52,079 nucleotides of DNA, taken from contig CASERY010000158.1 of assembly GCA_949290385.1 (NCBI GenBank), positions 1-52,079 on the forward strand. The letters are read 5' to 3'. The position numbers and the translations under genes were made by a program. The notes beneath the pieces are model-generated. The model was not told the DNA's origin. It did no database searches and saw only the letters and a program-made list of their open reading frames with translations. Of the stretch, positions 11,262-50,858 are shown one piece after another. How positions within the stretch are numbered: the first letter of the stretch is position 1; each line of letters starts with the position of its first letter. The stretch comes from an uncultured bacterium (GTDB taxonomy: Bacteria > Verrucomicrobiota > Lentisphaeria > Victivallales > UBA1829).

Positions 11262-12755
11262 ATGGATTCCAGAGAGATTAAAATTCTCAGCAGCAGACTC
11301 GTTCCGGCCCCCAGAGAATGTACCTTCAAGGATGGTCCGGAATATCTCCTGCAAAATCAATGCAAAATCGCTGTCAATGTCGCAGATCTCACAGATATTG
11401 AAGAAAAAGTTTATGCCTTGTGCAAACAATACTGGAATATTCAGCCGGCACTCACGCTGAAGAAAAATGCTTCGGCGGCGAAATTCAAACCGGATGCCTA
11501 CCAGATAAAAATCACGGAAAAACAGCTCACTGTTACCGCTGAAGCTCTTACAGGTGTAATGAATGCCTTTAAAACCCTTCGCCAGCTGGCAGAAGTTCAG
11601 CGCGGCACAGAAAAAGTAACGGGCTATTTTCTGGTTCAATCTGAAATCAAGGATGAGCCTGCATTGGCGTTCCGGGGAATCCACTTGTGCATCTTTCCTG
11701 AAACGCCGATCTGGGATATCGAAAAGCAAATCCGTCTGGCAGCCTATCACAAATTCAATTATGCTGTGATAGAAACCTGGGGAGTGTTCCCCTTCGATTC
11801 CCATCCGGAATTCTGCTGGGCAGATAAGAAAATCAGCAAGGATGAGTTTAAACGGCTTGTCCGGCTAGGAAAAGAGCTTGGCATCACACTGATTCCTCAG
11901 TTCAATCTCCTCGGACATGCTACAGGAGCCCGTGCCACCACGGCAAAACACGTAGTGCTGGATTACTATCCGGCCTATCAGCCGCTCTTTGAACCGGACG
12001 GTTGGTCCTGGTGTCTCAGCAATCCTGAAGTCCGCAGAATTCAGACTGACCTGGTCATGGAAATGTACGATCTTTATGACCGTCCTCCCTTCTTCCATAT
12101 CGGGTGTGATGAAGCAGATAATATCGGCACCTGCCGTGACTGTCGCAGAAGTTCCCTCAAAGATCTTGTACGAGATTTGATCCTGTACTTTCACGATCTG
12201 CTGTAGGAACATGGAGCTCGTCTAATTATGTGGCATGACATGCTCCTGGAATCCGGAGATAAACGCTGGAGCGGCTATACCGCATGTGGTCTTCCTGAAC
12301 ACAAGCTCAGTATGCTCTACAAGGAACTTCCACGGGATATTGTCATTGCAGACTGGCAGTACGGCTATAATAAAGCTGCACCGGAAGACCCTGAACCGGA
12401 ATGGCCGACTTCCAAATTTTTTAACAAGGAAAAGTTTGATGTTCTTGTCTGTCCCTGGCTGAATGAAAACGGAATTATCAGCCTCGGCAGAATGGCAGAA
12501 AAAGAAAAACTAACTGGTATTCTGGAAACAACGTGGCATATTTCTCATTGTTCCAATTTCCAGACCATCTTTAATATAGCAGCCAATGCTGGATGGAATC
12601 CGTCCAAGGCATCCGGCTCAAATACAGCCTCCCGTCTTGCAGCTACTATGCACACCCGTCAAATCGAATGGGATATGGATATTGTAGACTATGAAAAAAC
12701 CGGGTGGAATCAGTATCAGATGGATCCGGGACATCATCCTCATCCTGTCTTTTAA
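11262..12755 (+). CDS. GH20 beta-N-acetylhexosaminidase-like protein (contains UAG)
   Basis: Read with TAG as sense, this is one 497-aa protein; the TAG is at 12204-12206 (codon 315). Residues about 1-125 form the small alpha/beta domain that precedes the barrel in GH20 enzymes. The barrel begins at FRGIHLCIFPETPIW. The catalytic pair typical of GH20 is seen in FFHIGCDEADNIG. The TAG sits in a surface helix, FHDLL-X-EHGARLIMWHDML, where GH20 relatives have a variable polar residue, and the barrel continues at once. No signal peptide, so cytoplasmic; it would release GlcNAc or GalNAc from short oligosaccharides. It ends the sugar operon before a strong terminator. Confidence 0.8.
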
Positions 12756-14493: not shown

Positions 14494-15501
14494 TCAACTT
14501 TTTTTCTCCAGCATCTCAATTCGTCTTTCCAGAGACGGATGCGTCGAAAAAAGATCGGTCCATGCAGGCGGTGCAGCAATCATCATGGCGGCAGCCGGAT
14601 CATCTGCTGTTACGGTTTCTCCAGCATGAGAATCATCCATGAGTCTGCGCAGTGCACCAGACATGGCATCCATTCCGACCAGCGATGCAGCCGTAGCATC
14701 CGCTTCGAACTCCCGGTGGCGTGAAAACCACAGTAAAACCAAATCCCCCAGCAGAAACAGGATATTAACAATGACAAAGTGAATCAGCCAGGATAACAGT
14801 TTTGACTTTTTACAATAATCTTCATACCAGTCCGTCTGCCGTATGACGAAATCAACGACAATGACCGTAATATTAATCAAACTCTGCAGCAAAGTCATTG
14901 TCAACATATCCCCATTGGCAATATGAGCAGTTTCATGAGCCGCAACCCCGGCGATACTGTCTGAATCCATCTGTCTGAGCAAGCCGGAACTGAAAGCAAT
15001 CATGGAGTCATTTTTAGAAGCCCCGGTTGCAAAAGCGTTCATCTCTTCGCTTTCATAAATTCCAACTTCCGGCACTGCGGGCAGATTGGCTCGATTGGCC
15101 AGCGATTGAACCAGTTCCAGCAGATATTTCTCCTGATCATTTTCTACTTGTTCGGCTGTAATAATCCTGATCTTGTACTGCTATTTCAATAAAGATTTAG
15201 AAAAAAACAGCATCACAAATGGAACCACACTCCCGATCAGCAGCAGAAAAATCGCAGTTCCAATCCCGGCATGAGGATCAAAAATCCGGACAATGATCAT
15301 GAGTATAATCATTACTCCGACATTGGCCGCCATGAAAATCCCCATAGATTTCCCGAAACCTCCCCCCAGTCGAATCTGAGAGGATGAACGGATGCGATTA
15401 AAAATGGCTGTCACATCTTCCTGCGTCTGCCATTTTCCACAATAACGGCATTTTCGAGCCTCGTCCAAAATTCCTTTATTGCAATAAATACAGGATTTCA
15501 T
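14494..15501 (-). CDS. HtpX-like M48 membrane metalloprotease with N-terminal zinc ribbon (contains UAG)
   Basis: One 335-aa protein when TAG at 15181-15183 (codon 107) is sense; both halves share one frame. Residues 3-25 are a zinc ribbon (CIYCNKG...CRYCGKW). Two membrane helices follow (about 52-72 and 80-101). After FSKSLLK-X-QYKIRIITAEQ comes the M48 domain: EVGIYESEEMNAFATG, the zinc motif HETAH within GVAAHETAHIANGD, two more helices, and FEADATAASL carrying the third ligand. HtpX-type enzymes degrade damaged inner-membrane proteins. An N-terminal zinc ribbon is unusual for the family. The start is 2 bp after the stop of the upstream zinc-ribbon gene. Ends in TGA. Confidence 0.85.
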
Positions 15502-16896: not shown

Positions 16897-16981
16897 TGGT
16901 GGTGGGGGATGGATTCGGACCATCGAAGGTACAACCGGTAGATTTACAGTCTACTGCATTTGACCGCTCTGCAACCCCACC
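16897..16981 (-). tRNA. tRNA-Tyr (GUA)
   Basis: An 85-nt class II tRNA. Acceptor GGTGGGG pairs with CCCCACC, the anticodon loop reads ACTGTAAAT with anticodon GTA, and the T loop reads GGTCCGAATCC. There is a long variable arm. The discriminator A and the CCA end are encoded. Confidence 0.95.
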
Positions 16982-17002
16982 AAAGGGTTTGATTGAATAA
17001 AC

Positions 17003-17076
17003 TGGAGCGGGTAGAGGGAATCGAACCCTCACAATCAGCTTGGAAGGCTGATGTTCTACCGTTGAACTATACCCGC
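17003..17076 (-). tRNA. tRNA-Gly (UCC)
   Basis: A 74-nt tRNA. Acceptor GCGGGTA pairs with TACCCGC, the anticodon stem and loop read CAGCCTTCCAAGCTG with anticodon TCC, and the T loop reads GGGTTCGATTCCC. CCA is encoded. It lies upstream of tRNA-Tyr on the same strand, probably in one transcript. Confidence 0.95.
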
Positions 17077-17531: not shown

Positions 17532-18194
17532 TCATGCAGCAACAGAACGCCTGACGTAGCACCATTTCCGGATTAAACGCATTCTTTTCAGCAAAAACGA
17601 AATGATACCCCCCACAATACACGCAGAAAATATAGTTCCTTCCCGAATGCCTTCCACATGATGCATTGCTGCAATTCCCAGCAGTGCCGCACATACAACA
17701 AGTGTACAATCAAAAGCAATTTTCGTTCTGGAAAAATGAAAGCGGTATTTCAGCGCCAGCGCTTTTACAATTCCGTCTCCCGGCAGATACAAAACCTGAG
17801 CCAGCACCTGGAGCGTAATTCCAAAAGCCAGAAGGGCACACCCTCCAAAAAGATAGAATGTCTGGATCAGATAAAAATCAGTTCTGACAAACGACATCAG
17901 CCACATACCCAGATCAATAAAAACTCCGAAAAGAAAAGTCGCCGGCAATTGCAATATCTGATATTTTGGGAAATCCTTCCCCAGAAGAGCCTATTGAACA
18001 GCTAGAAAAAAAGCATTCAGAAGAAAAGTCTATATTCCCAGAGTCACAGGACAAATAAAAGTAATTACATAAGGAATACTTGAAATCGGAGTCGTTCCCA
18101 AACTTGATGCCGTTGCCATCGCTACACCCAGTCCACTGAAAACAATCCCTGCGGCAAAAACCACAGACCTCCGTTTCATATCAAAAACAATCAT
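17532..18194 (-). CDS. YczE/YitT-type integral membrane protein (contains two UAGs)
   Basis: A 220-aa protein when TAGs at 18030-18032 (codon 55) and 17991-17993 (codon 68) are sense. Under the standard code only a C-terminal piece with no proper start remains. The N-terminus starts MIVFDMKRRSVVF and holds the family's conserved SSLGTTPISSIPYVIT motif. The reading through both TAGs (TLGI-X-TFLLNAFFLAVQ-X-ALLGKDFPKYQ) gives an uninterrupted second membrane helix followed by LQLPATFLFGVFIDLGMW, also conserved in this family. Five or so helices in total. These proteins are poorly understood transporters or membrane factors. Start ATG 18194; an in-frame TGA lies just upstream. Ends in TGA. Confidence 0.75.
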
Positions 18195-19380: not shown

Positions 19381-19494
19381 CCGCCGCCGGCGACAGAACA
19401 CCCACGCACCTGGTTTCAACGCTTAGAGCTGCTTTGTTCCCAACCTGACTCGGTTCACGCGATTCCAGCACACAGGGTCCGGCACCGGCGGCGG
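19381..19494 (-). ncRNA. ffs: Signal recognition particle RNA (4.5S type)
   Basis: On the minus strand, a 114-nt RNA whose ends pair perfectly (CCGCCGCCGG with CCGGCGGCGG). The apical domain IV has the conserved Ffh-binding elements: GTCAGG on the 5' side, a GGAA tetraloop closed by TTG/CAA, and AGCAGC on the 3' side. The 3' end is followed by TTTTTTATTTT. This arrangement identifies the strand and the RNA. Confidence 0.92.
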
Positions 19495-20484: not shown

Positions 20485-21219
20485 TTAATTCCTTTGTCTT
20501 CGTGCGATCACCAATACGAAAACTTTTCCGGCACCGGCATCCAGTAAAATCTTTGAGGCGGAAGCCAGCGTGGCACCGGTAGTCATAACGTCGTCCACCA
20601 GTAATATAGCACGGTTTTCAATGTTCGTCGAATTTTTTAGAAAAAAAGCATGATTTAAGTTCTTGATTCTTTCGATCTGACCGCGCTGAACCTGCTGACC
20701 GGTCATCCTCACGCGCTTCAGAAGATTTTCACAGGGAACACCGCTTGCGTTCGCAATCTGCTCCGCGATAAGGGCCTACTGATTATAGCCTCTTTTCCAC
20801 TGTCTTGTCCAATGCAGCGGAATCGGCACAATCACATCTACACTGTTCAGAATACCGGAAACCGCATCGCAGGCAAAATACCCAAACGTCCTGGCCAGCT
20901 CAGGGTGATTCTGATACTTAAAAGCATGAATCATTTCCTGAAGTTCTCCTTCCATTCGGAACACAGCACGAGCTTCTGTCCATGGACGCAAACTGCTTTT
21001 CCTGCAACACTCAGAACAAATATCCAGGAATCCATCCAGCTCTCCCCCGCACATACGGCATGATGGTTTCCGGATAAAAGGCATCTTGCTCAGACAGTCG
21101 GCACAAAACATATTAGGTCTTCCATCTGCAGGGACTCCGCCGCAAACCGGACAGTTCATGGGAATATAGGTGCGCAGAACATTCCATAAAAAGTCTCTGA
21201 CTGAACGCTGAATATTCAT
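20485..21219 (-). CDS. comF: ComF-family phosphoribosyltransferase-like protein (contains UAG)
   Basis: A 244-aa protein when TAG at 20776-20778 (codon 148) is sense. The N-terminus carries two Cys pairs (CPVCGG, CADC and CRMCGG, CSECC), the usual ComF zinc region. The core reads DVIVPIPLHWTRQWKRGYNQ-X-ALIAEQIA, the highly conserved ComF motif interrupted by the TAG. It then has RTxQ-like MTGQQVQRGQIERIKN and the PRPP-binding loop ILLVDDVMTTGAT. Without read-through the PRPP loop would be lost. ComF proteins take part in DNA uptake or an unknown phosphoribosyl reaction. Start ATG 21219 follows GACAGGAAA; the frame is open farther upstream, but without support. Confidence 0.88.
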
Positions 21220-21788
21220 TTTCCTGTCGTCTCCGGCCTCCGCTGGGTCGATGGAATTTGTTTCAGACTTGAAAAATCCCCAGTCCTGTTTTAGAATCAT
21301 TTCTTCTCTTTTCGGTTCTTGTCGGCCGTGTTCTGTTCCTGATCTCATCCATTCGGCTGTTTTGAGAGAAATCCGCATCCAATTCGCATCGTTCGGCAGG
21401 ACATTTATTCGTACAGACTTTTCCCAGACCGCATTTTCAGAAGAAGCATGAAATCTTCCTTCCACTGTCTGATTTATCGACCAGATAATCGATTAAATAA
21501 TAGTATATATTCAGTCAGAAAATCTTTCAACCGGATGATCAGAAAACACATTCAGAGAATACACTTTTTTTCCTGTGCTTCGGCTTCTTTCACCCATTAT
21601 TCAGCCCCTATTCACCTGTGTTCGGACAGTCTGGCATTTTTATCCGAATCAATCATAAAAAACCACTTGTTCTTTCCCGTGGAAATGTTTTTGATTCAGG
21701 AAAAAGAATCTTGAAAAATTCCAGTTGACAGGTTATTTTATTTATCTGTAATTTGCATAAAATCCAATGAATTCCAGGAGAAGAAAAA
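21220..21788. other. Divergent intergenic region between comF and dapL
   Basis: About 570 bases without a convincing gene. It holds the dapL promoter (21725-21752). The comF frame stays open without stops to 21465, but nothing in the extra part resembles ComF. Confidence 0.5.
21725..21752 (+). promoter_or_regulatory. Sigma-70 type promoter for dapL
   Basis: TTGACA (21725-21730) and TGTAAT (21747-21752) are separated by 16 bp. The AGGAGAAG ribosome site and ATG 21789 follow directly. Confidence 0.65.
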
Positions 21789-29591: not shown

Positions 29592-31379
29592 TCAAGCATC
29601 CTTAGGCTGGATCACCGCTTTGATTCTGCGGACACCGCGGCTCGAACTCTCTTCCTTAAGGATTTTGAAAGCGCCCAGCTCGCCTGTATGCTGAGCATGA
29701 GGTCCGCCACAAATTTCCTTGGAAAAGTTTCCAATGCTGTAAACCTTCACGCGTTCTCCATATTTATTGCCAAACAGTCCGATTGCTCCGGATTTTCTGG
29801 CATCCTCCAGAGACATCTCCTCGCAAACGACAGGCACATCTTCCTGAATGACTTTATTGACAATATCCTCCACCTGTTTCAACTGTTCCGGAGTTACTTT
29901 ATCCGGATGGCTGAAGTCAAAACGGAGACGTTCCGCCGTAATGTTGGACCCTTTCTGCTCCACATGATCTCCCAGGACCATGCGCAACGCCTGATGCAGC
30001 AGATGAGTGGCCGTATGAAGTCTGGCAGAAGCTTCTGAATGATCCGCCAGTCCTCCTTTAAACTTCTGCTCAGCGCCGTGCCGGGAAAGCTCCTGATGTT
30101 TTGCAAAGGCTTCCTCATAACCTTTCATGTCTACGGAAAAGTTGCATTCCTTTGCCATTTCAACCGTGAGTTCAATGGGAAAACCGTATGTCTCATACAA
30201 ATAGAAGGCATTCTTCCCGCTGATGACCTTATTCTGAATATGTTCAGGAACACGGGAAATAAATTTTTCAAATTCCTTGGTTCCTCTTTCAAGAGCAGCG
30301 GCGAACTATTTTTCCTCGCGGTCAAATTCCTCCAGGATCATTTTCTCATTGGCTTCAAGTTCCGGATAGACTGCCTTATAGGAATCGATGACAACTTGAG
30401 CCATTTTTGCCGTAAATTCAGCTTCTATTCCAAGTTTCTTAGCCTCACGGATGGCTCGGCGGATCAAGCGGCGCAACACATAGGCCTGATCCACTTTTCC
30501 TGGAGTAATCCCGTCTGCCATAATGAAAGTGGCAGCACGCATATGCTCTACAATAATCCGTTCAGAACGTGTTCTCTCCGCTGGAGCTTCCGCAAGACCG
30601 CGGATTTTATCCAGTTCATCAAAAAGCGGCTTGAATATCTCAGTATCATAGCAGCTGGACTTGCCCTGAAGGATCGCGGTAACCCGTTCAACTCCCATGC
30701 CGGTATCCACATTTTTCTGCTTGAGCTGTTCAAATTTCCCGTCAGCATTCTTAAAATACTGCATGAAAACATTGTTCCAGATTTCAACCCAGAGTTTATT
30801 TGACGGATCAAATACTTCAGGCACGGGATCCGGACCTGTCCAATAGAAAATTTCTGTATCCGGTCCGCAGGGACCCGTTTCTCCGGCAGGCCCCCACCAG
30901 TTGTCTTTCTTTGGCAGTTTGGCAATATGATTTTCAGGAATACCGTGTTTTCTCCATTCCTCAAAAGCCTCTTCATCAAAGGGAGCATCCGCATCCCCTG
31001 CAAAAACTGTAACAGCCAGCCGGTTCACAGGAATATTCAACCATTCCGGAGAAGTCAGGAATTCAAAGCTGAACCCGATGGATTCCTTTTTAAAGTAATC
31101 ACCGAGAGACCAGTTCCCAAGCATTTCAAAGAAAGTCAGATGCACAGGATCTCCCACTTCATCGATATCGCCGGTACGGATACACTTCTGATAATCCGTG
31201 AGACGTCTTCCCTGGGGATGTTTTTCACCCAGCAGGTACGGGACCAGTGGATGCATTCCAGCAGTGGTAAAAAGTACGGTGGGATCGTTATCCGGAATCA
31301 GAGACGCGCTCTTGATTTCGGCATGACCTTTGGATTTGAAAAAGTCGATGAATTTTCTTCTTAATTCATTTGCTGTCAT
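29592..31379 (-). CDS. alaS: Alanyl-tRNA synthetase, short form without C-Ala domain (contains UAG)
   Basis: A 595-aa essential enzyme that charges tRNA-Ala. TAG at 30306-30308 (codon 358) lies in LEEFDREEK-X-FAAALERG, between the tRNA-recognition helices and the editing part. Other AlaRSs have Gln, Lys, Arg or Glu there; E. coli has EEEQFARTLERG as I recall. The catalytic domain is complete (QKCIRTGDIDEVGD, FFEMLGNWSLGDYF, TGMGVERV). The editing domain has HTATHLLHQAL and CGGPHAQHTGELG. The protein stops right after the editing domain (GVRRIKAV), so the coiled coil and the C-Ala/DHHA1 domain, about 250-300 residues, are missing. Start ATG 31379 (MTANELRRKF). Ends in TGA. Confidence 0.92.
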
Positions 31380-31480
31380 AACAGAATCTCTCTTCATTTT
31401 AAAGAAAAAATAAACATGATGTCAATATACACTGCAAAGTGCACGGTTCAAGTTTTTTCAGTGATTTTTCAACAGGCTTT

Positions 31481-32899: not shown

Positions 32900-33505
32900 A
32901 TGAAAGGTCTTACAGACAAACAGAAAAATATTGTGGATTTTATTGAAGATTTTACAAATTCCGCAAAAATGGCCCCCACTATTTATGAAATAGCAGAACA
33001 TTTCAATATTAAAACATCTACAGTTTTTGCCCATATTCGAGCTTTGCAGAAAAAGAATTATCTATCCAGAAGTTCCAAAGCCAGAAGCATCAGTCTGACA
33101 AAACCCCGCAGGGAAAACCGTATTCCAGCAGGTCTTCAGGCAGTTCCTGTTCTGGATGACAGTTCCAGCAAAGAAGTCTTCTGCGATACAAAGCTCCTGT
33201 AGAAAGCCGCCGCCGAAAGCGAACGAAAAAATATCTTTGCCATTCATGCAAAAGGTGCAGACATGGTGTCCGCCGGCATTCTGGATGGAGATATTGTGAT
33301 TTTAAAAAGCCATCCTGCCTATATTGCCAGCGGAGATATTGTTCTGACTGAAGTCAATGGAGAAAATGTACTGCGCACCTGCTATCCGGTTGGTCAGGAC
33401 AGTTACGAACTCAGAGCTGGAAACATTGCCTCTAAAGCCATGACTGCTAAAAAAGCGGATTTCCATGTCAAAGGTGTAGTCATCGGACTTCAGCGATTTA
33501 TCTGA
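32900..33505 (+). CDS. LexA-like repressor lacking the Ser-Lys dyad (contains UAG)
   Basis: A 201-aa protein when TAG at 33200-33202 (codon 101) is sense. Residues 1-65 match the LexA DNA-binding domain (LTDKQKNIVDFIEDF, PTIYEIAEHFNIKTSTVFAHIRALQKKNYL). The C-terminal part aligns with the S24 domain (GADMVSAGILDGDIVIL; GDIVLTEVNGENVLRT). The catalytic Ser of GDSM-type motifs is replaced (GADM), the Lys of the xVxRL segment is Leu (NVLRT), and no Ala-Gly cleavage site is evident in VPVLDDSSSKE. It is probably a non-cleavable dimerising repressor. Strong GGAGG before ATG. Ends in TGA. Confidence 0.8.
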
Positions 33506-34439: not shown

Positions 34440-35945
34440 ATGAAAATCCTCCATACAGCTGACTGGCATTTAGGTGCGACTCTGGCAGACAATCGCAGAT
34501 ATGCGGAATTCCGTCAGTTTTTAAACTGGCTTGTCCAGCTTATCCGGGAACAGCACATAGAATGTCTTCTGGTCTCCGGAGACATTTTTGACAACAGCAC
34601 ACCTTCCATTCATGCCCAGGAGCTGTATTACCGTTTTCTGGCAGATGCCGGGGATGCCGGATGCAGAACCTGTATTCTTATTGGAGGCAACCACGATTCT
34701 CCCGCCTTTCTGAATGCGCCTGCCGGACTTCTGCAGCGTTTTTCCATCCATACTGTCGGTTCTCTACCGGAGACAATGGAAGACGCTCTTTTCACGCTCA
34801 CCGATCCATCCGGAAAGCCATGCGCTGTTGTCTGTGCCATTCCTTATCTGAGAGAAAGAGATTTGAGTTCTGTCTACCGGGAATCATGGAATCCATCCGG
34901 GAACCCGGAACAACGCTTCAGCGAGGATTCTCTGCATTTCACCGGATCTGAAAGCATTGCAGATCATGTACAGCGTGTCAGACGGGCACTTCATCAAACG
35001 ATCCACTCGATTTACCAGGGGGCTGTTCAGCGGAGAAATTCCTTTCCCGAGGAATTTCGCACAGTTCCCATTCTCGGCATGGCACATCTGTTCGTTGTTC
35101 CCGGAGATGAATTGGACATACCGCAGGACCCTGCCGCCGAACCCATTCTTGGGACTCTTTCCGCCATACCGGCCGGAATGATTCCGCCGTTTGATTATCT
35201 TGCACTGGGTCATATTCATCAGAGCTATGCCATTAAAGGAGCACCTTTTATCCGCTATTCTGGTTCACCGATTCCGAAAACTTTTGCGGAAGCCAACCAT
35301 CATAAACACGTCATTCTTCTGGATACGGAACAACAGGACTTGCATCCATTTCCCATTGAAGTACCTGTTTTTCAGAAAATGGCAACGGTTTCCGGAGACT
35401 GGGAACATATTCAGGATCAGCTACACAAACTAATCCAGCTTCAGGAATCTATATGGATTTCAGTGGAATATACGGGCTATGCAGTTATGCCGGATTTGCC
35501 GGAATTGACCCGGGAGCTTGTCCGTGGGACCCCGGCAGAAATTCTTCAATGCAGGAATATGCACGCAATGGATGATCTGAAAGGCCCCGGCAGAAATCAG
35601 AATATCCGTCCGGAGGATATGACGCCAGAAAAAGTTTTTTGTCTGAAACTGGAAACTGCGGAAGTTCCCGCAGAGCAGAGACCGGAACTTTCCAACGCAT
35701 TCCAGGAAATTCTGAATTTGGTTCAAACCCCATCCGACGCTGGAACAGTCGGCACAGAAATCTCCCACCCTGCCGCCCCAGAGGACAGAAAAAATAACAA
35801 TGCAAAAGGCCCCGTACAGACCTCCGAGCAAAAAACCTTTCAGACAAGTCCGGATGCAGAACAAACAACGCCATGGCCTTCCAATCCCGTAACGGCAGAT
35901 GCTGTTTCAGCTCCATCTGTTCTCCAAAATGTACCGGAAAGGTAA
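34440..35945 (+). CDS. sbcD: Exonuclease SbcCD, subunit D (Mre11-like nuclease)
   Basis: A 501-aa subunit of the SbcCD nuclease, which cuts hairpins and protein-blocked DNA ends. The calcineurin-like metallophosphoesterase motifs are all present: HTADWHLG (residues 5-12), LLVSGDIFDNSTP, ILIGGNHDSP, LGMAHLFV and LALGHIHQS. The C-terminal 130 residues (capping domain and a long Pro/Gln/Thr-rich tail) are longer than usual. ATG 34440 gives the canonical MKILHTADWHLG start. sbcC begins 5 bp after the stop. Confidence 0.95.
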   Translation: MKILHTADWHLGATLADNRRYAEFRQFLNWLVQLIREQHIECLLVSGDIFDNSTPSIHAQELYYRFLADAGDAGCRTCILIGGNHDSPAFLNAPAGLLQRFSIHTVGSLPETMEDALFTLTDPSGKPCAVVCAIPYLRERDLSSVYRESWNPSGNPEQRFSEDSLHFTGSESIADHVQRVRRALHQTIHSIYQGAVQRRNSFPEEFRTVPILGMAHLFVVPGDELDIPQDPAAEPILGTLSAIPAGMIPPFDYLALGHIHQSYAIKGAPFIRYSGSPIPKTFAEANHHKHVILLDTEQQDLHPFPIEVPVFQKMATVSGDWEHIQDQLHKLIQLQESIWISVEYTGYAVMPDLPELTRELVRGTPAEILQCRNMHAMDDLKGPGRNQNIRPEDMTPEKVFCLKLETAEVPAEQRPELSNAFQEILNLVQTPSDAGTVGTEISHPAAPEDRKNNNAKGPVQTSEQKTFQTSPDAEQTTPWPSNPVTADAVSAPSVLQNVPER

Positions 35946-35950
35946 TTGTC

Positions 35951-38900
35951 ATGAAAATAGAAAAGCTGCATTTCAAAAATATTAACTCCTTGTATGGTGA
36001 ATGGGAAATAGACTTTACCCAGCCAGAATACACTCAGAACGGACTTTTTGTCATTACCGGCCCAACCGGTTCCGGGAAAAGTTCTATTTTTGATGTTCTC
36101 TGTCTTGCCCTTTTCGGAGCCACGGCCAGAATCTCTGTCAAAGGCAAGGAAAACGATGCCTTTTCCCTGGGGAAACATGAATTTCTTGCAGAAGCCGTCA
36201 TTCTGCTGGATGCAGGCCGTTTCCGATTCCGTTTTGAGCAGACACGTTCTAAACGGAAAAACTCTCTGGGCAACCTTCAGTCCTGCAGGAGAATCATCTA
36301 TCAGGGAGAGAACGTCTACGCGGAGGGAAACAGCGCCTCTGCCAAAGCCGCTGAACAGCTTCTGGGAATGGATCTGGAACAGTTTCTCCGGACCGTTATG
36401 CTCGCTCAGGGCAGATTCACAGCCTTTCTGGAGTCCGGGGAAAATGACAGAGCCATGCTTCTGGAAAACATTACAGGCACCGGCATCTACCGGGATATAT
36501 CCAAAGAGGTTTTCCTCCGGGCCAAAAATGAGGAAGAAGTACGCCGGCATATTCTGGACCGGCTGAACAACATCCAGCAAATAACTCCAGACTCTCGCGA
36601 ACAGCTCTTACAGCAGAGCGCAGATCTGGAAAAAACATTGCTCCTTCTTCAACAGGAACGTCAGGAATACGCGGATCTCTGTGCACTCTTTGATCAGTAT
36701 ACAAAGAATACAGAAGCTTTACACCAGCAGCAACTCCATGAAAAAGAACTTTTCCTGGAAGAACAATCCTTTCAAAAGGACGCCCTTCGTCTGAAACTGG
36801 CAGAAAATGCCCTTGAATGTGAATCCGCCTATCTTTCCCGGGAAGAACTCATCCGGACACAGGCCAGTCACCAGAAAAACCTTCAGCAGGCCGAAGACCA
36901 GGCGCAGCAACTCAAAGACCAGACGGCTGAAACAGAAAAACACCTTCTGCATGCCTCAGAGCAATTTGCCCTCTTTCAGGAATAGGAAAAAAAACTGATG
37001 CCTCTCCTGCAACAGGTCCGGACGCTGAAAACACGGGAAGAAGAAAAAAAAGTTCTTCTCAGGAAAAACGAAACCGATCTGTCCCTTTCCAAGCAGGAAT
37101 GTCTTGCGCAACAGAATCTTCTGGAAAAGCTGAACAAACAGGCACGCCAGGATGCTGCCGAACTGCAGGATACTCTTCTTTATCTTGAGCAGCATGCAAA
37201 AGACGCACAAATTGAATCCGTTCAAGCGCATCTGACCTCCTGCCGCGATATGCTCGTCTATACTTTCCGAAATGGCCTGACACTCTATAGACGTCAAAAT
37301 GAAACCACCTCTCACATGACGCAGCTCCGGCAGAAGATTTCTGAAATCCAGCAGGATCTTCAGTCCCGGCATGCCCAATCTGCTGAAACTGAAGCTGCGC
37401 AGAAGCAGTTGCAAACACAAATCCAGACGCTGCTTCAAGGACAGACTCTCCAATTCCATCAGGAACGTCTCCAGTCCGCCCTCCGGGAACAAGCCCTTCT
37501 CGCGCGAATTGCAGGCTACGAAGAAGAACGAAGACTTTTGAAAAAAGGGATCCCATGTCCTCTCTGCGGATCGCTGGAACATCCCTATGCAGAAAAACAT
37601 CCCTCTGATGAACAGTCTGTTCTGGCCCAGAAAATCTCCGGCCTCCAAAAACGTCTGGAAGACTATCAATCTCTTGAAAAACGCAGAAAAGAGCTTGACA
37701 GTCTCTCTCAGCAAGCCGAAACCGAAAAAATCCGTCAGGAAAACGCTCTTCAAAATTTTCAGCAGCAGCTTGCTGCACTTCAGAGCCAGTACCTCCAGAA
37801 TCAAACGGAACAGCAATCCATTGAAAAGCAAATTCTTTAGAAGATCAAGACATTCAATGATCTGGTCTCTCTTCACAATCTCGGTCCTGCATTAAACGAA
37901 AGTCTGTCTGAGGATATTTTCAAATCCGACCGCCCCGGTTCCAAAGAAGAAAAAACACCATCCTTCTTTCCTGATTCCGCTGTCATGCAAACCATCTTCA
38001 AAAATCTTGAACAGCGGCAAAAATGCTATCATAATGCCTGCACACTCCGGGATCAGGCACAAGAACGTGCCCAGACCCGCATGCTCAAGGAATCTGCCGC
38101 AAAATCCCGAGTACAGTCTTTGCTAGTTCGCCTCCATCAGCTGCAGGAAAATCGACAGGATGTTCTGCAGGATCTGGACAGCCTTCACCGTGATCTTTGT
38201 CATCTTTTTGAAAATAAAGATCCAGATCTGGAAGAAAAAGCGTTCAAAGAAAAATTCCGTCAGGCACAGCTTCTGGAATAGAAAGCCCTTCAGACACGAG
38301 ACATTGTTCAGCAGAAATATTCCAGTATTCTTGAAAAAATTTCTCAGCTTCAGCACGCTCTCACCTCGCTGAATCCATCTCTGGAACAAGCTCAAAAGCT
38401 CTGGTCCGAACAAAGGCGTCAGAATGGTTTTATTTCGGATGAAGACTTTCTGGCTGCCCGCATGGATGCCGCTGAACGAAGAAAGCTCCGGGAGAAAGCT
38501 GAATCTTTGCAGAAAAAACGTATTACACTCACAGAACGACTTCAAACTTTATCCCGGCATCGGCAGGATCTGGAACAGGTTCTGTCCGGGAAAGACTGTA
38601 TGGAATGTCAAGAGCATCTCAGCAAAGTGCAAAAAGAACTGCTGGAGAAGACCTCTCAGCTGGGAGCTGTCCGGCAAAAACTGGCAGATTGTGAAGAAAA
38701 AACCAGACAGATAGCCAGTCTCCAGGCTGAACTGGAAAAACAGAGTGCAACAGCCCGAAAATGGTCCCGTCTGAATGAACTGATTGGATCTGCATCCGGA
38801 GATTCCTTTGCCAGATTTGCAGAAAGCGTCATGTTTGACTATCTTCTGGAGCTGGCGAACCAGGAGCTGAAACGACTCAGTGACCGTTATACGCTTGTGC

Positions 38901-39274
38901 AGAATCCCCGGAAAACACTTGAGATCCAGGTTCAGGATTCTTATCAGTTTGATGCAGTCCGGTCTGGAGAAAATCTCTCCGGCGGAGAAAAATTCCTGGT
39001 AAGTCTTGCTCTTGCACTGGGACTCTCGCACATGACCCGCAAAAAGAATCGAATTGATTCGCTCTTCCTTGATGAAGGTTTCGGAACGCTTGATCCGGAT
39101 ACTCTTCAAATGGTCCTGCAAGCCATCGCATCCCTGCATCAGGATGGAAAACTTATCGGAATTATTTCCCATGTTCAGGCCGTCAGTGATCAAATTCCAT
39201 GCAGAATTGAAGTCATGCCTTGTGCAAAAGGACGAAGCATCCTGAACGGTCCCGGGGTGAAACGGCTGGATTAA
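35951..39274 (+). CDS. sbcC: Exonuclease SbcCD, subunit C (Rad50-like ATPase; contains three UAGs)
   Basis: An 1107-aa SMC-like ATPase. TAGs occur at 36983-36985, 37838-37840 and 38279-38281 (codons 345, 630, 777), all inside Gln-rich coiled-coil arms (LFQE-X-EKKL, KQIL-X-KIKT, QLLE-X-KALQ), with one frame throughout. Walker A is ITGPTGSGKSSIFDVLC (about residue 33), the Q-loop is MLAQGRFTAFLES, the zinc hook is CPLCGS with CPLCG-type spacing at about 536, the signature is NLSGGEKFLVSLALALGLS, and Walker B is SLFLDEGFGTLD. Length matches SbcC. The canonical start is ATG 35951 (MKIEKLHFKNINSLYG), 5 bp after sbcD. TAA overlaps the convergent neighbour's stop. Confidence 0.93.
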
Positions 39275-41163
39275 GGTTCAGCGCTCCCGTTACCCTGCGC
39301 CTCATCATAAAGGACCTGGGAAAAGGAAGAAATATCCACAGGCCCAAACCATCGGTTCAGAGTCAGGTCATATCGGTAGACCGGTTCATGGATGGCGTTC
39401 TCTTTACACCACAGTCTTAAATGATCCGGATACAAATCTTCAAAAATCTGCATCAGATGCCAGTTTTTCGGATAGGCTCCGGTATAACCATGAAACGTCT
39501 TGATCTTGTATTTCAGGGAAATCTCCATGGCGGCCATCTGGGCAAAAGCCGGCGCCATTGCATAATCATGCCACTGAGGACTCTCCTTGTCCGCATCCTC
39601 GGGAGGCTTCTCCGGCATTTTTTGAGTAACAAAAAAAACACGACAGTCCTCCGGAGGAGCTGCAATGCTTTCCAGGAATGCCCTGTTCCGCGAAATGCTG
39701 ATCTCTTCCACGCCCCCCAGATTTAAATGATCAACAAACAGCAGCAGCGCCAGGAACAAAGCCACAAGCCAGCCGGCTTTCCAAGAATGCAGTTTTCTTT
39801 GAAGGAGATCCAGAAGAAACGCCAGTAAAATTCCAGCAGGAAACAACAAAATCAGCATCATTCTGGATACAGTCCGTATTGCAGAGACTCCGGGAAAGTA
39901 TTTCCAGAGGGGATACCAGGTGCATTGAATGCCGTTGCCTCTTTTAATCGCAATCATACACAATGCCATACCGAACAGCAGAGCAAAAAGCCAGGCATTC
40001 TCACGAGTCATTGATTTTTTCATATGAAACAGCACAAAAAGGCCTGCCGCCAAAAGCATTGCCCATGTAATCAGAGGGAATCCCAGATACATTTCATAAT
40101 TGAGAGGCCGATCCCATGAATCCGGGAAAGTCTTACGCATCCAGCTGCTCCAAAGAACATTCCCAGGACCCACGTTGAAGTAATCAAACCATTTCAGAAG
40201 AGTGTCTGCCAGATCCCGCCAGACTCTTTTGTACCCCTGTTCCACGACCGGAACGTAAATCATCAGAAGAGGCACAGAACCTGCCGCAGTCAGAGGGAAT
40301 GCCACAATCGGGTCAAATTTACGAATTTTGATCCAGTTCACGAACTTCCGGAAATCATCTTTTTCCTGTCTGTAAAGGAAGGCAAGCAGTGCTCCCGCGA
40401 AAAAGGGAACCGCCAGGAAAACAAGAAAAAACGCCGTATAAAAAGATGTATAAAGAATCCAGAAAAAGATTAGAATTGTCCCGGAAAGAAAAGCCATCCG
40501 CTTCCAGGCAGAAGTCTCCATGCCGCACCTGCAGTAAGCGATTGCCGTGCAGCATAAAGGAACTATCAGGAAATAAGCGTAAAACTGTGTGTGAAATAAC
40601 TTGTGAAGCACAGAATTTCCAAAGCAAATCACCATCATTCCTGCCAGAGACGCAATCAGATGAAATCCCAGCTGTTTTCTCAGGAAGTAAAAACAACACA
40701 CTCCACCCACTCCATGCAGCAGAAAAAAACTGATCTGCTAGGCACGGAACATATCCATCCCCAGCATCCGGAACGGAATTTCCATTACAGCCAGAGGAAG
40801 AGACAAGTCTGAAAATCCCATGGCATTCCGAAAAGGATAAAAGAAACGCGTTTCCCCGAAATGCAGCTCCCCTTTGAAAAACTGGATCCAGTGTTCTGCG
40901 ATGAGAATATTGAACCGGGCATCTCCATCGTCTCCGGCAATCAGATCAAACCCTGATAATAGGGTCTTATGATAAAAAATGCAGAAGAGAATTATGAAAA
41001 CGAATGAAAAAAGAAGCCATTCCCGCAGACTTTTTCTATGAAAGAGTCGCCTTTCCTCTGCAGGATGCAAGATCTCCTGACTGCCGGAACATTTTTCCAT
41101 ACAGGCGTATTTTTTCAAAGAATCTTTCCGTTCTTTTCCCATCACTAAACCATTTCCCTTCAC
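39271..41163 (-). CDS. Polytopic membrane protein, GT-C-like paralogue 1 (contains UAG)
   Basis: A 630-aa protein with about ten membrane helices when TAG at 40738-40740 (codon 142) is sense. The first extracytoplasmic loop carries GDDGDARFNILIAEHW, an Asp-rich motif shared by all three tandem paralogues and reminiscent of GT-C glycosyltransferases; the activity is unproven. The TAG is in FRA-X-QISFFLLHG; the paralogues read RSVQISFYLL and RATQIVFSL there, so the site is variable (V, T). The C-terminal soluble part follows RVFFVTQK. Possible starts are GTG 41163, which overlaps the upstream gene's TGA, and ATG 41142. Stop TAA overlaps the sbcC stop on the other strand. Confidence 0.75.
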
Positions 41164-43196
41164 TTCTGTTCATTCTAAGGGGAGGAAACACTTTTCACTA
41201 CGGATCTTTCTTTTGCAATAGCCTGCTCTCCCGAAAACTGCAATAACTGTCCGGCACCAAGATCCACCGGCCCGAACCATTGATTCCGTATTAAATCGTA
41301 TCCGTACAAGGACGTTATTTCCGGATGCAGACGAGCCCATTCCCGGAGATTCTGCAAATAACGCTCCCCGGAAACCTCCAGAAGAGCCCATCTTTTCGGA
41401 GAATTTCCACTGTACCCGTTGACCGTTTTCAGATTGTAATGCAAGGCTATCTGCATGGCATCAATCTGGGCATAGACCTGTTCCTGCATATCCACAGGAT
41501 GTTCCTTCTAAACTCTGGACAGAATCGTCTGCTCTTCCTCTCCAATAACAAAAAAGACCCTGCAATCCGGCGGAGGTTCCGAAACCGATTCCAGGAAAGC
41601 CCTGTTTTCTGAAATACTGAAGTGCTCCATGCCCCCAATATTCAAGTGATCCAGATACAGCAGAAGAGCAACAACCGTCATAAATACCGCACCCAGTTTC
41701 CGGCCATGAAGTTTTTCCTGGATTCGGTTCAAGAACACAGCCAGCAGAATCCCGGCTGGAAACATCAGAATCACCATCAGACGCGTCTCAGAACGAATAG
41801 CCGATGCACCCGGAAACAATCTCCAGACTGCACACCAGTTGGAATACATGAGTCCCCCTACAGTTAGCAATGTCGCACACAAGCCACATGAAAACAATAA
41901 GATAAAAAGTCCTCTTCTTTGCCGGTTCATTTTTCCGCATTTCCAAAGCCATCCAAAAAGGGCTGCCCCCAAAGCCGTATAGATGCATCCTGCAAGCAGA
42001 CAAATCATCATTGAATACTTGGTTGCAAACCCTCCATTTCCCTTGGCAATCAGGACCATGCACAAAACACAGCCACCCCACAGTCCGAACAGCCACGCAT
42101 TTTCCCAAAGGATCTTCTTGCCGAACATTCTCCGGATGACATCCAGCGAAGCCCCCAGCAGAAGAATTCCTGTAATCCATGGAAATCCATAATACATTTC
42201 ATGGCATATAGGCCGCATCTAAGCTTCCGGAAACCATTTGGAAAAACAGTCGCTCCACAGAAAATTTCCAGGGCCCGGGTTAAAATAATCATACCAGTCT
42301 GAAAGCGTCAGCACAACTTCCTGCCAGGACCTCTCATATCCCCCGCTTACAACTGGATAGTAAATACGGAAAAACGGCCAGAGCTACACAAGTCCAAGGA
42401 TCTACAGAATTCCAAAGTCCACCATTCTGATCCGGAACCAGTTTCTCAGCGCCTTCAGATCCTTCCAGTTCTGTCTGGCAATGAATGCCACGGCAAGTCC
42501 GAAAGCAAACGCCACCGAAAAGAATGCGGTAAAAAATGCTGTATAGTAAGCAGTATAAAGGATCAGAAGAAAAATAAAAAACGCTCCTGAAAGAAAAGCC
42601 ATTCTCTTCCATCGCGGACATTTCTCTGTGCAGCGACAGTAACAAATCAACAGACAGCACAGCAGCGGCAAAAGAAAATAAGTATAAAATTGTGTGTGAT
42701 AAATTTTTTGAAGAACCGGATTTCCAAAACAAATAACCATCATCCCGATGACCGACGGCATGAAACGAAGTTTCAACAGCTTCCGTAACAGATAGAAACA
42801 ACTGCCCGCTCCAATAAAATGAATCAGGGAAAAAACAATCTGCGTTGCTCTTAAAGCATCCAGTCCCATCCATCTGAACGGAATTTCCATCCAGGCAAAC
42901 AGAATGGAAAGATCTGAAAATCCCATGGCATTCTCAAAGGGATAAAAAAAGCGTGTTTCGCCAAATCCCAGTTCCCCCTTCCAGTATTCAATCCAATGTT
43001 CTGCGATGAGAATATTGAACCGGGCATCTCCGGCATCCCCCGGAAGCAGATCAAATCCGGACACCAGCGTCTTATGATAAAATGAGCAGAATAATGCCGT
43101 AAACACCAGCAGAAACCATAAAAAATCATGGTTCCTCTGCTTTTTTTCAGGCTCCATTCCGGATAAATCTGTATTTTCAGAATGAAATAAAATCAC
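41160..43196 (-). CDS. Polytopic membrane protein, GT-C-like paralogue 2 (contains five UAGs)
   Basis: A 678-aa protein with TAGs at 42402-42404, 42384-42386, 42219-42221, 41508-41510 and 41175-41177 (codons 265, 271, 326, 563, 674). There is no other stop and no frameshift. It aligns end to end with its neighbours: the first loop GDAGDARFNILIAEHW, the helix VDFGIL-X-ILGLV-X-LWPFF (paralogue 3: VDFCIAGLIGMVGLIPFW), and FPEA-X-MRPICHEMY (FPEAGERVYYHE and FPDSWDRPLNYEMY in the others). After the last TAG only NEQK remains before TGA (41160-41162), which overlaps the GTG start of paralogue 1. Under the standard code it would be five fragments. Confidence 0.75.
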
Positions 43197-43394
43197 TTTT
43201 TCTTTTCTTTCCCGATACTGCTGCTCATGCCTCTGTCTCCAACAGGTATTTTCTTTGAAACAGAAACAACGGCAACTTTACACCAAAAGCGATATCAAGT
43301 CAAATAAAATCAATCAAACAATATAACCTTGCCGGGAAACATCTTTTCTTTCAAAAAATCTTTTATGTATCTTCTTCCTTCTCCCACCCCTTTA

Positions 43395-45368
43395 TTATTT
43401 CTCCGCGGACACAAGAGACAAATTCTACTTTGCCTGCAAATGACAGTCTTTCCTCTGGGAAACATGCAAATCCACCGGACCGGACCATTTCTTATCATTT
43501 AAATCATAACAGTAAAGAGGCTCCTTTATAGAATGCCGTTCAACCCATGCTTGAAGAAGCTGCGGATAAGATTCTTTGAAAATCAAATTCAAACTCCAGT
43601 TCTGCGGAGCATTTCCACTGTATCCGCAAACGGTTTTAAGCTTGCAGTACAGAGCTATTTCCATTGCATCCAGCTGGGCAAAAGACTGTTCCAGCTCTAT
43701 CCCTTCCCCTGGTATCTCCCCCTTTTTCGTCACAAAAAAGATCCTGCATTCTTCAGGCGGCGGCACGATGGATTCACGAAAAGTCCGGCGTTCGGCAATG
43801 CTGAAATGTTCATTTCCATTCACATTCAAATGGTCCAGGAATAACAACATCCCGATTCCGGCAAGGACAATTCCACCAAACTTCCAGCCGGAAAGCTTTT
43901 CAGCCACTCCGTTTAGAAAAAACGTTAGAATAATCCCTGCAGGAAACAGCAGAATCAACAGTATTCTGGAAACAACTCTTATCCCTGACGCCCCTGGAAA
44001 AATTCTTCGCACCGTATCCCATGCGGCCATGATCCCTTCCCCACGGAGAGCAAGAATCACACATGACACAAATCCAAAGATCATGGCTGCAAGGTACACA
44101 TTCCTTTGTGGCATATTTTTTTTCAAACGACACATTCCCCACACACAGCTCATTCCCAAAAGAAACAGCGTTATCCATGGAAATCCGCTCCAGAATTCAT
44201 GATAGTAAACACGCTCCCCCGCTTCGGGAAAGTTTTCAAGAAATCGCCTTCCCCACAGAAAATTGCCGTTTCCCGGGTTGAACAGATCATACCAGTTCAG
44301 GAGAAATGGAGAAATGTCTTTCCACGTTCTCTTAAATCCCTTTTCCAGCACAGGAGCATAAATCATCCAGAAAGGAATAAGTCCAACCATACCGATCAGA
44401 CCTGCAATGCAAAAATCCACAACCCTTATCCGGACCCATCGAAGAAACAGAAAAAAGTCCTGCGCATTCTCACGAAAAAGAAACACCAGCAAAAGTCCCG
44501 AAAAAAACAAAGAGACATAAAAAGCAGCAAAAAATGCCGTATAATATCCTGTATAAAGGATCAAAAGCCCCAGAAGTTCCGCCGCTGTCAGCCAGCCCAT
44601 ACGCCTCATCCACGAAACATTTTCTGAACATCTGCAGTAACAGATCAGGCAGTACAACATGGGCGGAAGCAGGAAGTATGTGTAAAACTGAGTATGCCCC
44701 AGTTTCTGAGCTAAAGCATTTCCAAAGCAAATCACCATCATTCCTGTCAGGGACGGCAGGAGATGAAAATGCAAAAGTTTCCGGAACAGATAGAAACAGC
44801 TTAAAGCCCCCAGAAAGTGGAGCAGATAAAAACTGATCTGAACAGACCTCATCGCATCCAGTCCGACCCCTCTGAACGGAAGTTCCATAACAGCATACAG
44901 CAGAGAAAGATCCGAAAACCCCAGAGTAAAATCCAATGGATAAAACATCCGAACCTCTCTGAAATTCAGCTCCCCTTTGAAAAACTGGATCCAGTGTTCT
45001 GCGATCAGAATATTGAAGCGGGCATCACCCACATCTCCGGGAAGCAGGTCAAATCCGGAAGCCAGTGTCTTATGGTAGAACGAACAGAATAATACTGCAA
45101 ACACCAGCAGGAACCATAAGAAATCGCTGTTTCTTCGTCTTCTCTTTCTCTCAGATAAAGCGTGACTGCTTTCACACAACCGCCAAGAGTGTTTTCCCGT
45201 TTCAGGTCCTTTCGGCACACGCTTCTCTGACCCTCCCGCCTCCGGCAGCTTTTTCTCTTCACTTACAATTCCACAGGCTCCCTCTTCTGTCATACCAGCA
45301 GATTTTCCCTTTTTTAGAAACAGCTTTTTCAAATCTCTCGAATCCTCCACAGGCTTCATTCGTTGCAT
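43395..45368 (-). CDS. Polytopic membrane protein, GT-C-like paralogue 3 (contains UAG near C-terminus)
   Basis: A 657-aa protein if TAG at 43425-43427 (codon 648) is sense; a TAG stop would shorten it by only ten residues, so this site alone does not discriminate. The N-terminal 80 residues are charged and soluble, then come about ten membrane helices with GDVGDARFNILIAEHW in the first loop. The C-terminal soluble domain contains LDAMEIALYCKLKTVCGYSGNAP, shared with both paralogues. Extracytoplasmic sugar transfer or lipid-linked glycan assembly is a guess from the fold pattern. Start ATG 45368 is uncertain because the frame is open upstream and no good ribosome site is seen. Confidence 0.72.
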
Positions 45369-49154: not shown

Positions 49155-49628
49155 TTTTCCGTCCAGGAAAGGTCCCGGCATACAGCCTGCAAATCCGGCG
49201 CCACACTTTCTCAGGCGTTCCGGAAGAGCTTTTGTGCTTTCTTTCCTTTTCTTCTCCATACCGCATGCCTCACAGGATGCCGCATTTTGAATGGAGACAT
49301 CCTCTGCAAGAATTCAGGAATTTAAGAATAAGAAAATGGAAGTATAGGCTATGCAGTCTATTCCCGGCAAGGATAGTTACCTTTCCAAATTAGCCTGAAA
49401 TTTTTTTGTACTGCCGGCTCCGGAAAATCCAAGGGACTTTCTTGATGCTTTTCCATCATTTCTCCGGGACAGAAATTCGGAAGGGTTCCTTTTCAGCAAG
49501 CCATCTCCAGGCAGGAAATTCCTGTCCGTGAAAAATGAAATCTTTTCTCACGGAAACAGTTGAAAAAACACCCCTTGCGCTGTATGTTAGGCGATTATCT
49601 ATCAATTGTTTTTCAGGAGTTGATTTTC
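49155..49628 (+). other. Intergenic region with promoter
   Basis: About 470 bases without a gene. The promoter at 49560-49588 and the GGAG ribosome site of the next gene are the only signals seen. Confidence 0.5.
49560..49588 (+). promoter_or_regulatory. Promoter for the DUF1015-kds unit
   Basis: TTGAAA (49560-49565) and TATGTT (49583-49588) with a 17-bp spacer, about 40 bp before the start codon. Confidence 0.5.
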
Positions 49629-50858
49629 ATGGCAGTTTTCAGGCCTTTTCATGCATTAATGCCTCAGGCAGCACAGGTGGCAAAAGTAGCCGCTGTACCA
49701 TACGACGTTGTCAACACAGAAGAAGCTGCCGCTCTGGCAGAAGGCAACCCTTTAAGCTTTCTTCGTGTATCCCGTCCGGAAATTGAAATGCCCCCCGGAA
49801 CCGATCTGCATTCTGACGCAGTTTATGCAAAAGCAAAAGCCAATTTTGAACGTCTCTGCAGGACTGCACCTCTTTCCCTGGATCCGGAAGCAAATCTGTA
49901 CGTCTATTCTCTGAAAATGGGAGACCGCACACAAATCGGAATTGCCGGCACAGCCTCTGCCGCAGAATATGACTCCAATATCATCAAGAAACACGAGAAA
50001 ACCAGGTAGGACAAGGAAGCCGACCGGGCAAGACATGTCATGGAGCTCCGTTCCCAGACCGGGCCCGTTTTTCTAACCTACCGTGATTCAGCCAGGATCA
50101 ATGCCGTTGTTCAGGAAATTATCCGCTCTGAACCATATTTCTCCTTCACCGCCAGAGACGGAGTGGAACATAAACTCTGGAAAGCAGGCAGCCGCAGCGA
50201 AGAACTCAGTCGGTGCTTTGCCGCGGATGTTCCCTGCTTTTATATTGCAGACGGTCATCATCGCGCGGCGTCAGCCTCTCATGCGGCAGCACGCTGCAGG
50301 TAGGAGAATCCCCACCATACAGGCGATGAGGAATACAATTACTTTCTGGCAGTGGCTTTTCCTGCTTCAGAATTGAAAATTCTTCCCTATAACAGAGCTG
50401 TACATGATCTCAACGGGCTGAATCCGGATGAGCTTATTGCACGCATTCAGGAAAAATTCATTGTCAATGCAACCAACAGTCCTGAACCGCCCGTCTGCGG
50501 CAGTTTCTGTATGCTTCTGAACGGGAAATGGTACCTGCTGACACCCAAATTTGATCTGAAAAAACTCGATGTCATCAGCCGTCTGGACGTGACAGTGCTT
50601 CAGGACAATATTCTGGGCCCGATCCTCGGCATTGATGATCCCAGAACAAGCCAGCGCATTGATTTTATTGGAGGCATTCGCGGTACGGGAGAACTTGAAA
50701 GGCTCCAGGCCATGCGCAAGGCCGCTGTCTGCTTCTCCATGTATCCGACAACGCTCCAGCAGCTCATGGATATTGCCGATGCAGGGGAAATTATGCCACC
50801 AAAGTCCACGTGGTTTGAACCCAAACTCCGAGACGGCCTTGTATGTCATAATTTCTAA
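49629..50858 (+). CDS. DUF1015 family protein (contains two UAGs)
   Basis: A 409-aa protein when TAGs at 50007-50009 (codon 127) and 50301-50303 (codon 225) are sense; all parts share one frame and the length is normal for DUF1015. Conserved stretches surround both TAGs: IIKKHEKTR-X-DKEADRARHV (family form HExTRxDKExDRxxH) and DGHHRAASASHAAARCR-X-ENPHHTGDEEYNYFLAV (family form DGHHRxAS...NPxHTGxExYNyfl). The aligned residues in relatives are variable and mostly polar or small. The N-terminus FRPFHALMPQAAQVAKVAAVPYDVV is typical. Biochemical role not known to me. Ribosome site GGAG before ATG 49629. Upstream of kdsB. Confidence 0.9.

Follow-up and report, generated by a model that had tools for sequence, protein, structure and literature searches.

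Throughout the genome of an uncultured gut-type Lentisphaeria (Victivallales-type) bacterium, UAG serves as a sense codon, and it does not behave there as a plain synonym of the glutamine codon CAG. A small residue, with Ala first, fits the constrained alignment columns at least as well as Gln, and none of the standard residues tested, taken singly, gives the fit expected of a codon long settled in its meaning. We consider it highly probable that the sense use of UAG arose by codon capture with loss of release factor 1 (RF1), a judgment that concerns the reassignment and not any one residue.

Genome and sequence comparisons

The genome (G000) is a 2.68-Mbp MAG in 168 contigs, 78% complete (22% missing), with a G+C content of ~46%; its species is the only one of its genus among 36 family genomes, and RNase PH places it closest to Lentisphaeria/Victivallales MAGs. 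By "the window" we mean the whole stretch of 52,079 nucleotides that was analyzed, contig CASERY010000158.1 (C158). The codon comparison set ~488 kb of this genome, roughly nine times the length of the window, against 1.9 Mb of its nearest sequenced relative, G007. The column statistics cover 48 to 56 TAG sites from these ~488 kb. For the column counts, the best nonoverlapping frame was kept and antisense shadow frames were removed; Trp and Tyr had appeared at TAG sites in the unfiltered count, but they belonged to shadow frames and were gone after this step. The column-profile score set 50 TAG columns against profiles built from relatives' sequences, with variability-matched samples of real codons as controls.

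UAG is used as a sense codon and not as a stop

Inside conserved alignments we found 67 in-frame TAG codons versus 11 TAA and 8 TGA codons (19 together), an excess of TAG far beyond chance; G007 had none. The TAA and TGA codons, judged from their sequence contexts, were located in gapped or low-similarity stretches or directly 5' of a start codon, looking like gene-end or start artifacts. The terminal codons of conserved genes were TGA (83), TAA (81), and TAG (5, by a counting rule that also catches in-frame sense TAGs); UAG no longer serves to end genes. Relatives that retain RF1 already make almost no use of TAG stops: G007 has 1 among 205 genes, and other Lentisphaeria loci have 12 among 435, as the codon-disappearance model expects.

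TAG occurs about once per 1,000 codons. Its count (56) approaches that of CTA (86), the rarest Leu codon, and TAG is scarcer in the most conserved genes and commoner in less conserved ones, a trend shared with CTA, CAA, and TTA. We therefore regard TAG as a rare sense codon and not as damage. The essential genes RpoA, AlaS, RF2, DnaJ, and MreB all carry it in frame.

Release factors, ribosome rescue, and tRNAs

RF1 (TIGR00019) had no match over the cutoff in this 78%-complete assembly, whereas 32 of the 36 family genomes had one and another scored slightly under it (33 of 36); the missing 22% of the genome could be partly responsible. This genome encodes two release-factor-type proteins and no more: an RF2 whose SPF motif is intact and a short ArfB-like protein (contig C30). 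The RF2 gene (L046, 917-2035, minus strand, contig C8) has an in-frame TAG besides the usual TGA frameshift site, so RF2 synthesis depends on UAG being read as sense. At this column, in the motif MS-x-PDFW, relatives have Lys (3) or Arg (2) and Escherichia coli has Gln. One tmRNA gene in the sequence analyzed encodes the tag ANEEYALAA; together with the ArfB-like protein, it provides this RF1-less genome with ribosome rescue. The genome G008, from the same genus as G007 and 72% complete, had no RF1 over the cutoff, and its AlaS is free of in-frame TAG.

No tRNA with a CUA anticodon was present among the 46 tRNA genes of the assembly, pattern scans of the assembly for such a tRNA yielded no credible candidate, and ARAGORN, run with introns on the sequence analyzed, reported no CTA anticodon. 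The one tRNA-like pattern match was the known tRNA-Arg(TCT); the others, among the matches listed (100 of 111 for the loose pattern), had no tRNA features in their strings. Other expected tRNAs (Ile-GAT, Ala-TGC, and three Ser tRNAs) are missing from the assembly as well, so a CUA tRNA gene may sit in the unassembled part. Both Gln tRNAs, CTG and TTG, are present. The initial annotation had proposed a CUA tRNA as a check on Gln; with none in the assembly, the search neither supports nor refutes that residue. PylS gave no match over the cutoff in any of the 36 family genomes, and its weak matches recurred in 13 of 14 control genomes.

Several further features of RNA genes and short words were recorded. 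A bacterial small SRP RNA gene lies in the window (19388-19484, minus strand, 57 bits). The genes for tRNA-Gly(TCC) and tRNA-Tyr occur as two copies of identical sequence in different surroundings (window 16897-17076, minus strand, and C5:12990-13170). TCTA and TAGA words look strongly depleted genome-wide, as a loose tRNA pattern starting with TCTAR had 111 matches versus 652 for its reversed control.

In-frame TAG sites in the window

Three adjacent membrane paralogues (39271-45368, minus strand), 49 to 51% identical, constitute a lineage-specific tandem family. The second of them spans 41160-43196 (minus strand) and contains five in-frame TAGs. The family had no relative in any of the 35 other family genomes, and each of its TAG columns, aligned with MAFFT, is read against two paralogues only. 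The sites in the window are as follows.

42402-42404, minus strand: membrane paralogue 2, TAG 1 (aa 265); faces Phe (paralogue 1) and Gly (paralogue 3), in the hydrophobic stretch GILxILGLVxLWP
42384-42386, minus strand: membrane paralogue 2, TAG 2 (aa 271); faces Gly/Gly
42219-42221, minus strand: membrane paralogue 2, TAG 3 (aa 326); faces Trp/Gly
41508-41510, minus strand: membrane paralogue 2, TAG 4 (aa 563); faces Asp/Glu in a poorly aligned loop
41175-41177, minus strand: membrane paralogue 2, TAG 5, close to the C terminus; no paralogue counterpart
40738-40740, minus strand: membrane paralogue 1 (39271-41163); faces Thr/Val
43425-43427, minus strand: membrane paralogue 3 (43395-45368), ten codons ahead of the TAA end; readable either way from the site alone
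20776-20778, minus strand: ComF-type phosphoribosyltransferase (20485-21465), motif RGYNQxA; Ala in 18 of 29 relatives, Ser in 9, Thr and Val in 1 each, Gln in none
30306-30308, minus strand: alanyl-tRNA synthetase (AlaS) core (29592-31397); Gln 11, Thr 9, Leu 8, Met 3 (the four nearest relatives all have Gln)
50007-50009, plus strand: DUF1015 protein (49560-50858), TAG 1; Arg 3, Lys 3
50301-50303, plus strand: DUF1015 protein, TAG 2; Ala 5, Val 1
12204-12206, plus strand: GH20-like protein (11262-12755); Ala in G007
33200-33202, plus strand: LexA-like repressor (32900-33505); Asn in G007, in a weakly aligned part of LexA structures
36983-36985, plus strand: SbcC-like protein (35873-39274), TAG 1; Gln in G007, 31% identity, weak context
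37838-37840, plus strand: SbcC-like protein, TAG 2; Ile in G007, weak context
38279-38281, plus strand: SbcC-like protein, TAG 3; Val in G007, weak context
391-393, plus strand: M16-like peptidase fragment (160-633); Lys in G007
15181-15183, minus strand: M48-like membrane peptidase (14494-15501); Leu in G007, weak context
18030-18032, minus strand: small membrane protein (17532-18194), TAG 1, seen in translation; hydrophobic context LGIxTFLL
17991-17993, minus strand: small membrane protein, TAG 2, seen in translation
2611-2613, plus strand: long membrane protein (2347-4563), TAG 1, seen in translation
3445-3447, plus strand: long membrane protein, TAG 2, seen in translation

The residue pairs quoted in the initial annotation (Gly/Phe, Gly/Gly, and Gly/Trp for paralogue 2, Val/Thr for paralogue 1, and Ala/Ser for ComF) are all correct. 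Two of the sites that it described as polar or Gln-like do not bear this out: the GH20 site and the DUF1015 site at 50301 face mostly or wholly Ala. The three SbcC sites, placed in the same class, face Gln, Ile, and Val in a poor alignment (31% identity).

Constrained columns from the larger data set conflict with one another. In RNA polymerase alpha (RpoA), the TAG falls in the motif SSLEG-x-A, where relatives have Ser (3) or Ala (2) and the five structures shown have Ala or Val. The TAG of an RND pump (13390, motif LQSKL-x) faces Ala 5, Ser 1, and Gly 1, with Gly in the five structures shown. The DnaJ TAG (motif GRS-x-GFF), by contrast, faces Gln in five of five relatives and in the E. coli DnaJ structure. 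Thus RpoA, ComF, the RND pump, and DUF1015 want Ala, Ser, or Gly where DnaJ wants Gln, and two columns, those of RF2 and of DUF1015 at 50007, are occupied by basic residues. Ser occurs in the TAG columns of ComF, RpoA, MreB, RND, and NAD(P)HX dehydratase.

Residues favored at TAG sites

Opposite the 56 TAGs, G007 has Ala (11), Gln (7), Lys (6), Ser (5), Leu (5), Arg (4), Glu, Thr, Gly, and Val (3 each), Asp and Asn (2 each), and Ile and Phe (1 each); there is no Trp or Tyr, although both are one step from TAG. The Gln fraction of 12.5% compares with 46% opposite CAG and 31% opposite CAA, or 36% and 29%, respectively, within TAG-bearing genes, and 7 of 56 departs from an expectation of 0.29 to 0.46 at P values of 3e-3 to 1e-7. 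If UAG encoded Gln, a change from CAG to TAG would be synonymous, and TAG sites should resemble CAG sites; they do not, which argues against Gln. The single step from CAG, which had been offered as support for Gln, therefore cuts against it.

Column scores were highest for Ala (+3.1), followed by Ser (-1.8), Gln (-10.9), Thr (-15.5), and Lys (-17.3), and the ranking was independent of the pseudocount. All 500 draws of real-codon controls were assigned to the right residue, for each of the twelve residues tested. TAG columns do not peak at Gln as CAG and CAA sites do (a score of -10.9 versus +31.6 expected for a real Gln codon; z = -4.9), nor at Ser as Ser codons do (5.8 SD below), and Ala ranks first yet falls 4.1 SD under a real Ala codon. 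For the nine other residues tested, TAG lies far below the expected self score; every residue tested misses by at least 4 SD. In bootstrap replicates the best residue was Ala in 69%, Ser in 22%, and Gln in 8%, with Ala scoring above Gln in 88%. The Gln-minus-Ala contrast at TAG was -14.1, and Ser codons give a mean of -19.1 (SD, 6.9). Column statistics had been proposed in the initial annotation as a check; over these ~50 aligned positions, they do not peak at Gln.

Other scores point toward Gln. It was the best single residue by pairwise likelihood, with the runner-up 14 nats behind in the first set; over 56 sites at the normal rate, Ala followed at -5.8 and Ser at -11 nats, and with a free rate the lead of Gln was 1.8 nats over Ala, 2.1 over Lys, and 2.6 over Ser. 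The bare composition of this genome nonetheless explains the TAG-site counts better than the Gln row does, by 16 nats. A neighboring-residue model, calibrated in-sample, placed Arg best with Gln within 1 nat, both ~11 nats over Ala and Ser (Ser was 12 behind the best), although the neighbors may reflect the former occupant of a TAG site. An expectation-maximization (EM) mixture assigned Ala.22, Gln.20, Leu.11, Ser.10, and Lys.09 and was 31 nats better than Gln alone. In conservation, TAG columns match Gln columns (mean top probability,.399 versus.401). A search for near-identical paralogues with a TAG/sense swap returned none. The lean of the initial annotation toward Gln is thus weakened, kept up by pairwise likelihood and neighbor context and opposed by the count of 7 in 56 and by the first rank of Ala in the multirelative column score, while its caution that the residue was not settled, with Ser, Leu, and others still in play, stands with 488 kb compared against 1.9 Mb of G007.

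Discussion

We propose that in the lineage leading to this bacterium UAG stops first dwindled to very few, that RF1 would then have been lost, with UAA and UGA terminated by RF2, and that UAG returned as a rare sense codon, in a sequence of codon disappearance and capture. The reader of UAG would most likely be a tRNA with a CUA anticodon encoded in the part of the genome absent from the 78%-complete assembly. Our tentative first choice for the residue, at well below even odds, is Ala. No single mutation turns an Ala codon into TAG, so Ala predicts sites of mixed ancestry (Q, K, S, L, and E), which Gln does not. If UAG is Ala, TAGs would arise at Ala-tolerant CAG, AAG, GAG, TCG, and TTG sites, in addition to some old Ala/Ser sites. 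This expected pattern matches the sites seen, but DnaJ and AlaS favor Gln and the sample is small. Capture by Ala also has against it that no CUA tRNA was found, that Ala scores 4.1 SD low, and that both likelihood and context favor Gln.

Gln comes close behind, as a possibility that we hold to be somewhat doubtful. UAG would be read by a tRNA-Gln(CUA) that had arisen from an existing tRNA-Gln; gut phages recoded at TAG (PMC10879173) and many eukaryotes, in their nuclei (PMC8629427), offer precedents. The pairwise likelihood, the neighbor context, and the DnaJ and AlaS columns speak for it, but Gln is opposite TAG far less often than opposite its own codons (12.5% versus 29 to 46%), its column z score is -4.9 when a real Gln codon is called Gln in 500 of 500 matched samples, and it is absent from the TAG columns of ComF (29 of 29 relatives), RND (7 of 7), and RpoA (5 of 5). 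Alternatively, no dedicated tRNA may exist, and near-cognate tRNAs (Gln, Lys, Ser, Leu, and others) would read UAG after RF1 loss, with the codon surviving where the residue matters little. The lack of a CUA tRNA among 46 tRNA genes, the failure of any single residue to fit, the gain from the EM mixture, and the presence of tmRNA and an ArfB-like rescue factor are all consistent with such mixed decoding, and E. coli without RF1 inserts Gln, Tyr, Asp, and Val at UAG codons, where frameshifting and rescue by tmRNA also occur (PMC6207430). We nevertheless find it unlikely: the columns at TAG are no less conserved than those at Gln codons, TAGs occur in RpoA, AlaS, RF2, DnaJ, and MreB, neither Trp nor Tyr appears among the 56 sites, and heavy frameshifting would be costly at ~1 TAG per 1,000 codons.

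Seryl-tRNA synthetase ignores the anticodon, and a tRNA-Ser(CUA) would be one step from tRNA-Ser(CGA), just as TCG is one step from TAG. Ser is second in column score and in the bootstrap, its codons give a Gln-minus-Ala contrast like that at TAG, and it is found in five of the columns named above. Against this, the TAG score for Ser is 5.8 SD short of that of a real Ser codon, G007 has Ser opposite 5 of the 56 TAGs, and context places Ser 12 nats behind the best; we think Ser rather improbable. A residue other than Ala, Gln, or Ser, read without mixed decoding, is less probable still. Pyrrolysine or another nonstandard amino acid is extremely improbable, even though TAG is the pyrrolysine codon and the sites match no standard residue tested; we rejected pyrrolysine on the absence of PylS over the cutoff in 36 family genomes, and the TAGs lie in many housekeeping genes. 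We give equally little credence to an artifact, in which pseudogenes, sequencing errors, or contaminating DNA of a recoded organism would have produced the pattern. The genome is a 168-contig MAG, but the enrichment is of TAG only and not of TAA or TGA, it reaches essential genes across many contigs, and the Trp-site signature of pseudogenes (compare PMC8629427) is absent.

Every bacterial stop-codon change known by 2021 involved UGA (PMC8629427), and the one lineage added by a survey from 2026 is again a change of UGA to Trp (PMC13092985); reassignment of UAG is known in eukaryotic nuclei, mitochondria, and phages. The literature searched, in which subscription papers and preprints were thinly covered, contained no UAG change in Lentisphaerae or Victivallales, and we do not claim priority. 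The change of UAG to Ala after its disappearance has been described in the mitochondria of the green algae Hydrodictyaceae and Neochloris (PMC6821328), where, as here, UAG is nearly unused in relatives and returned as sense and the UAG release factor changed; the columns are Ala-like there, and Ala ranks first in the column score here. Those are small organelle genomes with a visible Ala-type CUA tRNA, whereas this is a 2.7-Mbp bacterial genome in which no such tRNA was seen. The same codon is sense in many genes of TAG-recoded gut phages (PMC10879173) and of several eukaryotic nuclei (PMC8629427), but it means Gln there, and the phages rely on a suppressor tRNA in a standard-code host, unlike a cellular genome that has no RF1 and in which Gln is not supported as a plain synonym. 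Bacterial UGA reassignments (to Gly in Absconditabacteria/Gracilibacteria and to Trp in Mycoplasmatales and endosymbionts; PMC8629427) likewise turned a stop into a sense codon, with the corresponding release factor lost; here, the pair is UAG and RF1 rather than UGA and RF2, without genome reduction and at a G+C content of ~46%. Recoded E. coli without RF1 (PMC6207430) is also an RF1-less bacterium, in which UAG is unassigned or near-cognate-read, but it was engineered with all UAGs removed, while the bacterium described here uses UAG in many genes.

Whether UAG passed to Ala, or to a residue that one mutation cannot reach synonymously, after RF1 loss in a 2.7-Mbp genome, or else is genuinely ambiguous, is for us an evenly balanced proposition. 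If the residue is not Gln, the common default of code 15 would give every TAG-bearing protein of such a genome a wrong residue. Since TAG hardly ever serves as a stop in the nearest sequenced relatives, the reassignment would allow a direct test of the codon-disappearance model. If true, reassignment of UAG together with RF1 loss in a bacterium with an ordinary-sized genome would be a natural counterpart of RF1-less recoded E. coli.
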